This document shows positions 43,687-49,617 of a stretch of DNA of 64,000 bases, one piece after another. Below the pieces are notes generated by a model. That model saw only the letters and a list, made by a program, of their open reading frames with translations. It was not told where the DNA came from and searched no databases. Position numbers and translations under genes: made by a program. How positions within the stretch are numbered: position 1 is the first letter of the stretch; every line of letters starts with the position of its first letter. Source of the stretch: Luteolibacter pohnpeiensis (lineage in GTDB: Bacteria > Verrucomicrobiota > Verrucomicrobiia > Verrucomicrobiales > Akkermansiaceae); NCBI RefSeq assembly GCF_016595435.1, contig NZ_JAENIJ010000021.1, positions 1-64,000 on the forward strand, in the 5' to 3' direction.

Positions 43687-46215
43687 CTACTTTTTCGCTG
43701 CGGCTTTTTTGGCGGCGCGTGGCGGGAAATCGAAGCCGATTTTGCCGTCTTTCGGATCAAACGTGAGATGGGCGTCGAATTTCCGTTTGGTGCGGTTTGA
43801 GACAAAGCCTTTCAATAGATCGGTCTTGCCTTCGGAGAGCAATTTCAATGCCTGATCCGCTGGGATTTCACGCTGGAGGATGGACTTGCCGATCCGAATT
43901 CCGTTGGCGTCCTTCTTCGTGACGAGCTCCGGCACATGATAGGCTTTTTCGGTTTCGTAAACTTTCACCTTCTTGCCATCGGCAAGTGTCGCTTCGCCTA
44001 GTAACTGATCTTCCGTCAATTCAACTGCGCTGTCTTTTTCATCGCTGTCGAACACGAAATTCACTTTGAATTTCTCGTCCAACGCCAGGCTGGCATCGAA
44101 TAGCTTGTTGAATCGCGACTTGAATCCGCTCAATGGGCCGACAGTGCCTTTGAGGAATAACTCCTTGAGCTCTTCTTCGGTGATGAGGCGGCCAGCGATG
44201 TGTTTTTTCAGTTTGAACGGAGTGTCCGGATCGCGCGATTCGTAAGTCGCATCGGTTTGACGCAGAACAAAATCGCCGTGCACGGGGTGGTGCACTTCCA
44301 CGTCCGGGAACTTCTGGCTCTTGGCAGCTTCGGCCAAATGATGGGCTTTTTCGACGATCTCGTTGGTGTAGGAGATGATCTCCTTCATGAACGCTGGGCG
44401 CTCCAGCAATCCTTGCTCCATCTGGCGCAATTTGTATTCCCAGTCACCAGTGAGCTTCGGCGAATAGAGACCCTCAATGTTCATTTGGTGGACCAAAGAG
44501 ATCAGGCGCATGCCGGTTGGCGTCACGTGAAGGTCGCGGCCGTCCCGCGCCATGTATTTTTGGGAAATCAATCCCTCAATTGTTGCCGCGCGGGTAGCGG
44601 GGGTGCCGAGACCGCGTTCGGACATGGCTTCGCGGAGCGCCTCATCATCGACCAATTTTCCTGCCCCTTCCATCGCGGAAAGCAAAGTGGACTCGGTGAA
44701 CCGAGCTGGCGGACGGGTTTGCTCGTGGATCAGTTCGATCGCATCCACATTGGCTTTTTCGCCCTCATCGACTGCAACGAGTTCGTCTTTGCCAGCCGCA
44801 ACGCCTGGGCGACGACCGTAAACTTCAAGCCAGCCGGGCTTGGTCAGGATTCGTCCATCGGTTTTGAACACATCCGTAACGGAGCCGTGGTCGATTTTGG
44901 TCAGACGGGTGGTTTGTTCGAACTCCGCGTGGGGGTAAAACACGGCGATGAACCGTTTGACGATCATGTCGAAAACTTTTTGCTCCGTGTCCGAAAGTTT
45001 GGCGAATTTGCCGGTCGGAATGATCGCAAAGTGATCCGATACCTTTTTGGAATCGAACACCCGGCGCAGCTGCGTCAGCTTCGGACCCTTGCCATCGCCG
45101 CTGCCAGCCAGAACAGCTTTGGCGAATCCGGCGACATCGAGGTCGCTGTTGCCGATTTCCTGCATCGTTTCCCGGACGTTTGGCAAATAATCCTCCGGCA
45201 AATAGCGGGAGTCGGTCCGGGGATAGGTGATCACCTTATGTTTTTCATAAAGTGCCTGGGCGATTTGAAGTGTGCCCTTGGCGGAAAACGGCGCTTCACG
45301 CTGCAGGGTCGTCAGGTCGTAGAGCTGCGGCGCAATTTGGGATTGGGCTTTTTTCTCTTCGCTGACCGTGCCGGATTTGCCTTCGCAGCGATCGCGAATG
45401 GTTTCGGCAGTCGACTGATCCCAAATGCGTTCCTGGCGACTGTGCGGGTTCGACTCATCTTTTTTCCATGCCGGATCGATCCATTTGCCGAGATATTGGC
45501 CAGCGGATACACCAAAAGTTCCGTGAACTTCGAAGTATGGCGTTGGTTTGAAGGCTTGGATTTCAGCCTCACGAGCGGCCAGGATGGCCAAAGTTGGCGT
45601 TTGCACCCGACCCGCTGCGGTGATGTTGAATCCGCCGTGGCGCGAGTTGAAGCAGGTCAGAGCACGGGTTGCATTCAGGCCGACCAGCCAGTCGGATTCC
45701 GAGCGGCATTTCGCGGCATCCGCCAGCGGCTTCATTTGCTCATCCGTGCGGAGTTTATCCCACGCTTCGAGAATGGCATTATTGGTCATCGATTGCATCC
45801 ACAGCCGCTTCACTGGCTTTTGGATGTTTCCGATTTCAATGATGTAGCGGAAAATCAGCTCTCCTTCGCGGCCGGCGTCGCAAGCATTGACGATGAGGTC
45901 GACGTCCTTGCGTTTGGCAAGCTTCAGCACTTGCTTGAGGCGCGCCTCGGAAGTGGCGATGGGATCCAGTTCAAAACGATCGGGAATGGCGGGGAGAACA
46001 TCAAATTTCCAAGGCAGCTTTTTCCCGTTTGGCCCCATCGGCATGCGCAACTCCACCAAGTGACCGACTGCTGAAGTGATCACGGCATCGTCATTTTCGA
46101 AGTATGCATCACGGCCCGAACCTTTCTTTTCGAACTTTCCGAGCACCTTCGCGAGGGCGCGGGAGAGGTCGGTCATGACACTTGGCTTTTCGGCAATGAT
46201 GAGTGTTTTTCCCAT
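43687..46215 (-). CDS. topB: DNA topoisomerase III-type (type IA) with basic C-terminal extension
   Basis: 842 residues. The Toprim domain has [20 protein letters not shown] and the acidic [13 protein letters not shown]. The active-site Tyr lies in [15 protein letters not shown]. The core ends near residue 600. Beyond it come about 240 residues of Toprim-associated C-terminal repeats ([40 protein letters not shown]) without zinc-finger Cys clusters, and a lysine-rich tail. This resembles the extended TopB-like enzymes rather than the 653-residue E. coli TopB. A 624-codon antisense frame is a shadow. Confidence 0.92.
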
Positions 46216-46302: not shown

Positions 46303-47415
46303 TCAACGCAGGGTGTAGCGGAATCCAGGAAGCACCCGAATCAAACGGCGCATTTCCAATTTCATGAGCGTCGCGGTGACGACGTGGGCGGGAAGACCTG
46401 ACTTTTCAATGATCAGATCGACCGGGGATTCGGCAGCGTTGATGTAAGAGAAAATCTTAGCTTCATCCTCGGGTAATTCAGGAAGCGGAAGTGGCTTGTC
46501 AGAAGGCGTAGCTGTGCTCTTTTGCAAAGGAAGCTGGCCGAGATCTTCTAAAATATGATCGCCGTCCATCACTAGAGTTGCTCCGTCACGAATCAACTGA
46601 TTGCAGCCGAGCGAGGTAGGTTTGTCGATGGGTCCTGGCACGGCAAATATGGGCTTTCCATATTCCGAGGCCAAATTGGCGGTAATGAGAGAACCGGACC
46701 ACGCCGGACATTCCGTGACCAGAATGGCTTGTGACCAAGCGGCGACGATGCGGTTCCTCATGGGGAAAGTTTGCTTATCTGGCGCCGTGTTTAAGGGGAA
46801 TTCAGAAACAACAGCTCCATGGCCTTCGGCGATTTTTGCAGCAAGCGCCAGGTTTTCAGGTGGATAGAGTTTTGCCAAACCGGATCCAAGGACCGCAATG
46901 GTGCGACCGTTGGCAGCTAGTGCGGCCTCGTGGGCGGCGGTATCGATGCCGCGCGCCAAGCCGGAAATGATGGTGTAGCCCGCGCTGGCGAGTTGATAGG
47001 AGAGTTTCTTGGTCGCTTGTTTGCCGTAATGGGTCGTTCGTCTGGAACCGACGACCCCGATCGCATGGCGATCTTTTGGGGATAAGTCACCCCATACATA
47101 CAACAGTAGGGGAGGGTCGTAGGCATCCCGCAGCGGTGCGGGGTAGTCGGCGTCATCGTGGGTGATGATCGAAATCCCACGTTGTTCCGCATCGGCGATT
47201 TCAGTGAGCGGGTCCGCGTGTGATTCCCAGGAAGTGATGATTTTTGCCGTTTCCTCGCCAATGCCGTCGACTCGCATCAGTCGATCCTTGGGGGCATTGA
47301 GGATGGCGGTGGCGTCCGTGAAGGATTCCAACAGACGGCGCACGCGGATGGGGCCAATTCTTGGCAGTAAATTCAGAGCAACCAGTGCTTCCCGGGGAGA
47401 CATTGACGTGAGCAT
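46303..47415 (-). CDS. dprA: DNA processing protein DprA
   Basis: 370 residues (ATG 47415; 47403 also possible). The N-terminal helix-hairpin-helix region (LNLLPRIGPIRVRRLLESFT) precedes the Rossmann fold that binds single-stranded DNA and loads RecA in natural transformation (GVVGSRRTTHYGKQATKKLS; SGLARGIDTAAHEAALAANG; TECPAWSGSLITA). A C-terminal winged helix occupies about 305-370. It begins 7 bp after the FAN1-DnaQ stop on the same strand. Confidence 0.94.
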   Translation of the reverse strand: MLTSMSPREALVALNLLPRIGPIRVRRLLESFTDATAILNAPKDRLMRVDGIGEETAKIITSWESHADPLTEIADAEQRGISIITHDDADYPAPLRDAYDPPLLLYVWGDLSPKDRHAIGVVGSRRTTHYGKQATKKLSYQLASAGYTIISGLARGIDTAAHEAALAANGRTIAVLGSGLAKLYPPENLALAAKIAEGHGAVVSEFPLNTAPDKQTFPMRNRIVAAWSQAILVTECPAWSGSLITANLASEYGKPIFAVPGPIDKPTSLGCNQLIRDGATLVMDGDHILEDLGQLPLQKSTATPSDKPLPLPELPEDEAKIFSYINAAESPVDLIIEKSGLPAHVVTATLMKLEMRRLIRVLPGFRYTLR

Positions 47416-47421
47416 GCAGAT

Positions 47422-49617
47422 TTAGGGTCGCGTGGCGATCTCGGATTCCTGGAATGAACTGGTTGGTTTAATAATGCGTTTGAGATTGATCAGTTTGAGC
47501 AATTCTGCGGTGGCTGCAGCATCACACAACGCCCGATGATGCCGATCCAATGAGATGGAAAACTCATCGCACAGTCGGGAGAGTTTGTAGGACTCCAATC
47601 CCGGATAGAATTTCCGCATTGCCACCACGGTGCAGAGTGTTGGGCGGCGAAAGTTTTGCCCGAGACGAGTGTATTCGTCGCGAAGGAATCCGTAGTCGAA
47701 ATTCGCATTGTGAGCGACCAACACGGCATCGCCCACAAATTCTCGAAACGAATCGGCAATCTGTTCGAAAGTGGGGGCATGCTCAACCATTCGATCATCA
47801 ATTCCCGTGAGTTCGGTGATGATTTTTGGAATCCGGCGCTGCGGGTGGATTAACGTCTGAAATTGATCAATCACCTCACCATTGCGGACCTTTAGTGCTC
47901 CGATTTCTGTCACCCGGTGACTTTCCGAGCGACGCCCCGTGGTTTCGAGGTCGACCACGACGTATTCCTGCATCGGATCGATCCACCACTGCACCCTGAG
48001 CACCCCAACGTCGAAACCAGCTACGCGCAGGGCTTCCATTTGCACCAATTGATGTCGCCGGATCTGGTCTCCCTCGGCTTTGATTTCGAGGAATTTCACC
48101 CCATCGGGATCGAAAACCAACAAATCGGGGTAGCCTCTTCCATTGGATTTAGGATCTGCTGCGATTCTCCGCAAAATGGTGGCTGTGGCCGTGGGAGTTG
48201 CGGCTTTCAAAAACCGGATCAGCATTGGCAAATCTTCCTCACGCCAGTGAAAGATACCGTTCGGTTGTCCGAAGTGATTGGAGAAAACCTCCTGGATCCA
48301 GGCTTCCGCTTTCGCTGTGCCGAGCCATTGCAAACGCGCCTCAATGACATCGGCCTGTTTCTCCGCAAAGCTTCGGTTTAGAAGTTGGGTGGGTCGCAGC
48401 TCAAACTCATTGGGAGTCGCGCAACTGGATTCGCCGTGAAGCGCATCCCAGAACATTACGCCAAACAACACCGACCAAAAATGATTCTCCACATGGATCG
48501 CCGTTTGACCCAGCTCCATGAAATGTCTGACCACCGCTTCTTCGGGCTGATCACGGAAGGCCTCGTCCAGTTTTAGAATCGGGGCTTCGCGCAGTAGCTG
48601 GGTGAGTCTGCCGATTTTGCGGCCGCCAAATTTCCGGGCATGAAAATCCTCGGCAAACAAGAGCTCTTCATCACTTGCAGGCTGATCGATAATTCGCTGC
48701 AAAAATGCCTGCACGATTTCGGTTTCTCCGCGTGCGTGACGAAGTCGGCAAATGCGCTCGCGGGCAGGGTGGTGATCCGATAGTTCATAAACCTGCAGAG
48801 CCTGTGGAATACAGTCGATGCGTTCCAGGCGTCCACCAAGCTGGGCGATGACGCGATGGAATTTTGCCTCCGTTTCCCGGTCGACTGCTGGTGGCCAATC
48901 TGCTGCAGAATCCGCGATGATGAGCAATTCACCGGGGTCCGCAGTCTCAATTTTTGTGGCGATCGAGCTGTAAAAAAATGCTGACTTGGCGCTTTGCGGA
49001 CTCTGAAATCTGGCCTCGAATTGAGTTTGTGCGGACTGAGTTTTCACAATTCCCAAGTCCCTCAATGCAAATGCCTGCAGGCTATCACGGGTTTTGCCGA
49101 AATAGAGAAAAAGCAAATACTCGAGCGTCTGTGTTCGAGCCTGGACGGTGAAGGATTCCAGCGTGAAGTGCCTGGCGAAATCTGCGAAACCGTAGCTTTC
49201 TCTGACCCAATTTCGGATCTGCTGTTTGGTTTTGCCGCTTGTGCAGCACTTCGCTGGATTTTCATCCGATTTCAGAAATTGGACGAGTTCAGCACGAGTT
49301 AGCAGATCTAACCATTCATCAACATCCGCTGCCTCCAAGGGTCGGATAAAGCCAAGCTCCCGCAGTTCGAGAAGCGAACTGTCGCGATCAGGGATTTCTG
49401 AATATTTGAATGACTCGATTCGAAAAATTCGCCCCCGGCGATTCGTCATTCTTACTTTCAATGCCTGAGCTTGTTGCCCCAATTGGTTGAAATGCTCGAT
49501 ATATTCACGTTCTTCGTCAGCCAACACTTTGGCATAGTGATTTTCTAAAAATGCGACCATTTCCTTAAAATGGTCGAGATAGTAGAAAGTTCGAAGTGTT
49601 GGAAATGGATGAGGCAT
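47422..49617 (-). CDS. FAN1-like VRR-NUC nuclease fused to a DnaQ-type 3'-5' exonuclease
   Basis: 731 residues from ATG 49617 (the frame opens at 49644). Residues 1-190 match the bacterial FAN1 N-terminal region (FYYLDHFKEMVAFLENHYAK; EIPDRDSSLLELRELGFI). A helical middle part (about 230-430) is TPR-like. The VRR-NUC domain lies at about 440-548, with GYPDLLVFDPDGVKFLEIKA then EGDQIRRHQ giving the PD-(D/E)xK residues. A complete DEDDh exonuclease follows from 551: VVVDLETTG, VAHNANFDYGF and HRALCDAAATAELL. FAN1 enzymes cut crosslinked or flap DNA; fusion to a proofreading-type exonuclease suggests stepwise incision and trimming. dprA follows after 7 bp. Confidence 0.85.
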   Translation of the reverse strand: MPHPFPTLRTFYYLDHFKEMVAFLENHYAKVLADEEREYIEHFNQLGQQAQALKVRMTNRRGRIFRIESFKYSEIPDRDSSLLELRELGFIRPLEAADVDEWLDLLTRAELVQFLKSDENPAKCCTSGKTKQQIRNWVRESYGFADFARHFTLESFTVQARTQTLEYLLFLYFGKTRDSLQAFALRDLGIVKTQSAQTQFEARFQSPQSAKSAFFYSSIATKIETADPGELLIIADSAADWPPAVDRETEAKFHRVIAQLGGRLERIDCIPQALQVYELSDHHPARERICRLRHARGETEIVQAFLQRIIDQPASDEELLFAEDFHARKFGGRKIGRLTQLLREAPILKLDEAFRDQPEEAVVRHFMELGQTAIHVENHFWSVLFGVMFWDALHGESSCATPNEFELRPTQLLNRSFAEKQADVIEARLQWLGTAKAEAWIQEVFSNHFGQPNGIFHWREEDLPMLIRFLKAATPTATATILRRIAADPKSNGRGYPDLLVFDPDGVKFLEIKAEGDQIRRHQLVQMEALRVAGFDVGVLRVQWWIDPMQEYVVVDLETTGRRSESHRVTEIGALKVRNGEVIDQFQTLIHPQRRIPKIITELTGIDDRMVEHAPTFEQIADSFREFVGDAVLVAHNANFDYGFLRDEYTRLGQNFRRPTLCTVVAMRKFYPGLESYKLSRLCDEFSISLDRHHRALCDAAATAELLKLINLKRIIKPTSSFQESEIATRP

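Follow-up and report, generated by a model that had tools for sequence, protein, structure and literature searches.

A FAN1-type nuclease fused to a DEDDh exonuclease in Luteolibacter pohnpeiensis and other bacteria

Analysis of a 64,000-nucleotide stretch of the Luteolibacter pohnpeiensis genome (contig NZ_JAENIJ010000021.1, hereafter the window) revealed a gene that encodes a bacterial FAN1 nuclease and a complete DEDDh exonuclease as one chain. Both halves belong to known families, but their combination is undescribed in the open-access literature searched. We read the protein as a two-nuclease DNA-repair enzyme that would make and then widen a gap at branched or interstrand-crosslinked sites, a reading to which we give a probability of roughly 0.55. 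For bacteria without a Fanconi pathway, knowledge of interstrand-crosslink removal is incomplete, and even in humans it is unclear what comes after the FAN1 incision. The fusion, a natural one, reveals which second activity evolution sets beside FAN1, namely a 3'-5' exonuclease, and allows incision and trimming to be assayed jointly in one protein.

Domain architecture of the fusion

The gene is a single open frame of 731 aa on the minus strand, with the plus strand there full of stops, and the coordinates given for it in the first-pass annotation proved correct (Table 1). Use of a TTG start would lengthen the frame to 49644. Because the L. pohnpeiensis assembly is in 254 contigs, the gene needed to be checked for chimerism; chance joining or an assembly artefact was rejected, as dozens of independent genomes carry this same fusion.

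Table 1. Features of the fusion gene and its neighbours in the window; residue numbers refer to the fusion protein
Feature	Position	Strand	Basis
Whole gene, FAN1-DEDDh fusion, 731 aa	47422..49617	-	ATG at 49617, stop 47424-47422
FAN1_HTH domain, residues 11-91	49345..49587	-	Pfam PF21315, E 4e-24
FAN1 middle region (SAP/TPR-like), residues 92-435	48313..49344	-	unbroken alignment with PaFAN1
Metal ligand E377, in FAN1 middle region	48487-48489	-	equals PaFAN1 E386, invariant in 24
VRR-NUC nuclease domain, residues 436-544	47986..48312	-	Pfam PF08774, E 1e-11
VRR-NUC active-site residues	D498 48124-48126, E511 48085-48087, K513 48079-48081	-	invariant in 24
Joint, residues 545-551, conserved D-P-x-Q	47965..47985	-	free of indels in all 24 proteins
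DEDDh 3'-5' exonuclease domain, residues 552-710	47488..47964	-	Pfam PF00929, E 7e-38
DEDDh residues	D556 47950-47952, E558 47944-47946, D641 47695-47697, H694 47536-47538, D699 47521-47523	-	invariant in 24
dprA, neighbour 6 bases downstream	46303..47415	-	Pfam; not counted as system part
topB-like type IA topoisomerase, neighbour	43687..46215	-	Pfam; not counted as system part

The FAN1_HTH, VRR_NUC and RNase_T matches all score well above their Pfam curated cut-offs. For the first of these the score is 84.7 bits against a cut-off of 27, indicating that a FAN1-type N-terminal domain is present, and it is the only FAN1_HTH domain in the L. pohnpeiensis genome. FAN1 homology, initially claimed for the N-terminal region, holds over the whole length of this half: Pseudomonas aeruginosa FAN1 (PaFAN1, PDB 4r89) residues 18-558 and fusion residues 9-547 form one co-linear alignment (E 1e-35), and the family profile matches PaFAN1 at 3e-71 and human FAN1 at ~1e-41. 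The VRR-NUC domain with PDL...EIK residues, also noted in the first-pass annotation, was borne out, with D498, E511 and K513 as the residues concerned. Together with E377 these correspond to E386, D507, E522 and K524 of PaFAN1 (numbering from PMC4348246), so that the E...PD...ExK site is complete. In the model of PMC4103454, an insertion in the FAN1-type VRR-NUC domain keeps the enzyme monomeric. The spacing between E377 and D498 is 121 residues, equal to that between E386 and D507 of PaFAN1, and the helical insertion that works against dimerisation is therefore probably kept in the fusion.

The second half likewise matched the initial description of a full DEDDh exonuclease on the same chain, having the five catalytic residues (D, E, D, H, D) of the Exo I, II and III motifs and a Pfam RNase_T match that spans residues 553-707 (PF00929, 131 bits against a cut-off of 24). 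DEDDh structures align over residues 550-710, the nearest in the PDB being the PolC exonuclease 2p1j. The top NCBIfam match is to the DEDDh part of PRK07883 (E 2e-53), with DinG-type fusions and PolC also close; the equivalog cut-off of PRK07883 is missed (182 vs 495 bits).

Conservation of the joint and both active sites

Conservation was assessed in 24 full-length fusions from Verrucomicrobiota and Proteobacteria with identities down to ~34%, with lengths and spacings taken from one MAFFT alignment. All nine catalytic residues (E377, D498, E511, K513, D556, E558, D641, H694 and D699) are invariant in 24/24. The D-P-x-Q joint connects the final VRR-NUC strand to the opening strand of the exonuclease, and the distance from K513 to D556 is 43 residues in every one of the 24. 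Residues 508-717 (210 residues), running from the VRR-NUC active site through the exonuclease, make up the longest indel-free block of the fusion. Since a flexible linker should differ in length between proteins, this pattern suggests that the two active sites would be held in a fixed relative position. A structure model built from a two-row alignment (the window protein and L002) reached a pLDDT of 42, and no geometry was drawn from it. Positions H16, E19, R186, D324, W381 and R521 are specific to the fused group.

Nei-Gojobori dN/dS values for close pairs were 0.16-0.22 in the FAN1 half and 0.08-0.20 in the exonuclease half, the ranges covering pairs with unsaturated synonymous sites. Both halves are under purifying selection.

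Distribution and evolutionary history

Of 387 genomes sampled from the same order, 28 were positive in a FAN1_HTH search, and in all 28 the frame runs on into the exonuclease, although several of these loci end early in the retrieved sequence so that only the junction or the exonuclease start is visible there. The fusion also occurs in G188, a genome from another part of the class; in two genomes of another class (G266 and G370) FAN1 is unfused and 517-520 aa long. Beyond Verrucomicrobiota, the search covered plasmid records and one genome-contig scan with single-protein patterns, which yielded one relative. Full fusions with 34-40% identity were found on two Bradyrhizobium and three Pseudoalteromonas replicons, where annotated under the name 'exonuclease domain-containing protein', and the FAN1 copies on Vibrio and Burkholderia plasmids are unfused. 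The fusion is far commoner than a single sequence could reveal.

The Bradyrhizobium plasmids carry other genes near the fusion. On one, an SRAP (HMCES/YedK-like) gene lies immediately upstream on the same strand (L034:8167-8916); on another, a Ku gene lies ~7 kb upstream (L033:956-1885). The record of this latter plasmid annotates only the last ~535 residues of its fusion (L033:8971-11151, annotated start 9547) and overlays the N-terminal part with an opposite-strand hypothetical protein, yet the complete frame is uninterrupted from 8971.

In a tree of the FAN1 part, a single branch with support 100/100 separates fused from unfused rows, for which one fusion event would be the simplest reading, bearing in mind the length of this branch and the small number of unfused rows. 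The proteobacterial plasmid copies cluster together (95/87) inside verrucomicrobial diversity in the tree as drawn, a placement compatible with horizontal transfer. The exonuclease tree recovers the same main groups as the FAN1 tree. One genome without a fusion (G037) encodes a stand-alone DEDDh exonuclease (L132:5742-6500) that falls within the fused clade (98/93); it retains a similar joint, QQEFVVID, with no FAN1 similarity upstream, and probably reflects secondary loss of the FAN1 half.

Genomic neighbourhood

No recurring neighbour was found across lineages at the fused loci. A conserved operon partner was rejected, the immediate neighbours by Pfam being a transporter, a GST, a glutamine synthetase, an AraC regulator and a DUF protein. 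Within one genus (g2), the fusion is often at a stable chromosomal site beside an ABC-ATPase gene (Pfam) and an mnmA-like gene (named by eye).

Unfused FAN1 genes have a different setting. An XPD/DinG-like helicase directly follows FAN1 in G266, G370 and Burkholderia (L040:2257-4572, L041:7462-9743 and L059:6689-8956, with the L041 copy split in two frames) and does not follow the fused genes; the two unfused Vibrio copies are also without such a helicase directly behind them. The verrucomicrobial helicases show a weak PD-(D/E)XK match at the N-terminus. Of 11 fused genomes scanned for Helicase_C_2 proteins, nine have only one, compared with two each in G266 and G370; among the exceptions, the second match in G503 is a 69-aa fragment and that in G188 a distant relative of the FAN1-adjacent helicase. 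This pattern is suggestive only, and the exonuclease may have replaced a helicase partner.

Proposed mechanism

FAN1 enzymes combine incision of 5' flaps, a few bases beyond the junction, with a 5'-3' exonuclease activity (PMC4103454, PMC9635880). In the proposed mechanism, the FAN1 half would recognise a 5' flap or stalled fork and, like PaFAN1, incise a few bases to the 3' side of the junction, acting 5'-to-3'. Incision would leave a 3'-OH, from which the attached DEDDh domain, fixed beside the VRR-NUC site, could resect 3'-to-5'. A cut on one side with 3' trimming on the other would take out the patch that carries the lesion and provide a clean 3'-OH from which the gap can be filled. In a mycobacterial fusion of a Cho-like GIY-YIG nuclease with an exonuclease, the latter was proposed to digest from the incision through the lesion (PMC1564403). 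By analogy, an exonuclease that starts from the 3'-OH made by FAN1 would be the simpler reading here; trimming of the other strand, the option raised initially, is possible.

The biological role would be chromosomal repair, not phage defence or competence. We infer this role, along with the substrates, polarity and coupling of the two activities. DEDDh enzymes act on RNA as well, so DNA as the exonuclease substrate is an assumption taken from the FAN1 half. The fused loci form no conserved repair operon, which weighs against the repair reading. Tentatively, and at somewhat below even odds, the fusions could be viewed as a distinct FAN1 subfamily that rigidly couples two nucleases of opposite polarity, so that a single protein could excise DNA on both sides of a crosslink or extruded loop, and that in many of these bacteria supplies the only DEDDh exonuclease.

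Alternative functions

The exonuclease might instead be mainly a proofreader or 3'-end cleaner that edits the gap-filling polymerase or substitutes for pol III epsilon. A scan for RNase_T proteins (E <= 0.001) returned the fusion as the only match in 17 of 23 fused genomes, including G501 and G188, most genomes being 91-99% complete, and these 17 apparently have no separate proofreading subunit of the DnaQ type. The nearest relatives of the domain, of the PolC, DinG and PRK07883 types, also favor such a role. The same domain misses the cut-offs of the pol III epsilon equivalogs (TIGR01406 and NF004316; 107.8 vs 222.7 and 97.5 vs 196 bits), four relatives without FAN1 (G039, G042, G045 and G054) have no RNase_T protein either, so that the lineage manages without one, and the L. 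pohnpeiensis genome encodes two RNase_T proteins besides the fusion. On balance we consider a primary proofreading role unlikely. Fused domains are, as a matter of general knowledge, sometimes retained for binding alone, and a DEDDh domain that acts as a passive DNA-end binder or FAN1 regulator would need little from catalysis; with its five catalytic residues invariant in 24 diverged proteins and a dN/dS equal to or below that of the FAN1 half, this seems very improbable.

Patchy distribution and presence on large plasmids, in one case ~2 kb from an annotated gene for the GTPase-associated-system protein GASH, would fit an anti-phage or plasmid-encoded defence nuclease. We regard this, too, as very improbable: PADLOC matches are confined to the exonuclease domain, the fusion has no conserved partner and keeps its stable chromosomal site in genus g2, and the FAN1 half has no copy in the viral collections searched (50,697 phage records and IMG/VR). 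The least probable function is that of a DNA uptake or transformation factor acting with DprA and TopB; from these neighbours the first-pass annotation had suggested a DNA uptake or repair setting. The neighbours themselves were correctly named, and dprA is 6 bases away on the same strand with topB next. The link to uptake found no support, as dprA and topB are adjacent in relatives without FAN1 beside them and recur at no other fused locus. The window fusion thus appears to be merely upstream of an old dprA-topB pair, and a functional tie was rejected, the fusion being found elsewhere beside unrelated genes.

Relation to known nucleases

The fusion shares with bacterial FAN1 (PaFAN1, PDB 4r89/5y7g; KIAA1018 subfamily of VRR-NUC) the architecture of residues 9-547 and the four metal-site residues; PaFAN1 stops after VRR-NUC, whereas the fusion adds the complete DEDDh exonuclease. 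Cho+Exo and Cho-like+Exo proteins (GIY-YIG + DEDDh, PRK07883) likewise place a damage- or structure-specific endonuclease and a DEDDh domain on one chain, with the same logic of incision followed by 3' trimming (PMC1564403). They differ in the endonuclease, which is GIY-YIG in Cho+Exo with the exonuclease N-terminal, and a PD-(D/E)XK VRR-NUC domain placed N-terminally in the fusion, where no GIY-YIG domain was matched by Pfam. The same exonuclease family is joined to DNA-processing enzymes in the DnaQ-DinG helicase (TIGR01407), PolC and Cas2-DEDDh, in which the partner is a helicase, polymerase or Cas2 instead of FAN1. FAN1 is a further partner for DEDDh fusions besides the polymerase, DinG helicase, GIY-YIG nuclease and Cas2. 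The first-pass annotation had allowed that the fusion might already be well described; no account of a FAN1 + DEDDh fusion was found in the open-access literature searched, and term searches of a 2022 eLife survey of VRR-NUC families returned no mention of it.

Phage origin or spread was rejected: the 50,697 phage records and IMG/VR yielded no FAN1 half, and viral matches to the full profile are to the exonuclease domain only. One viral match that clusters with the fusions (L062) looks by eye like DEDDh + GIY-YIG. This DEDDh protein lies at a contig edge (L062:1-1359), has a GIY-YIG-like C-terminal part that makes it Cho+Exo-like, and is located near genes that by eye resemble integrase and tape-measure genes.
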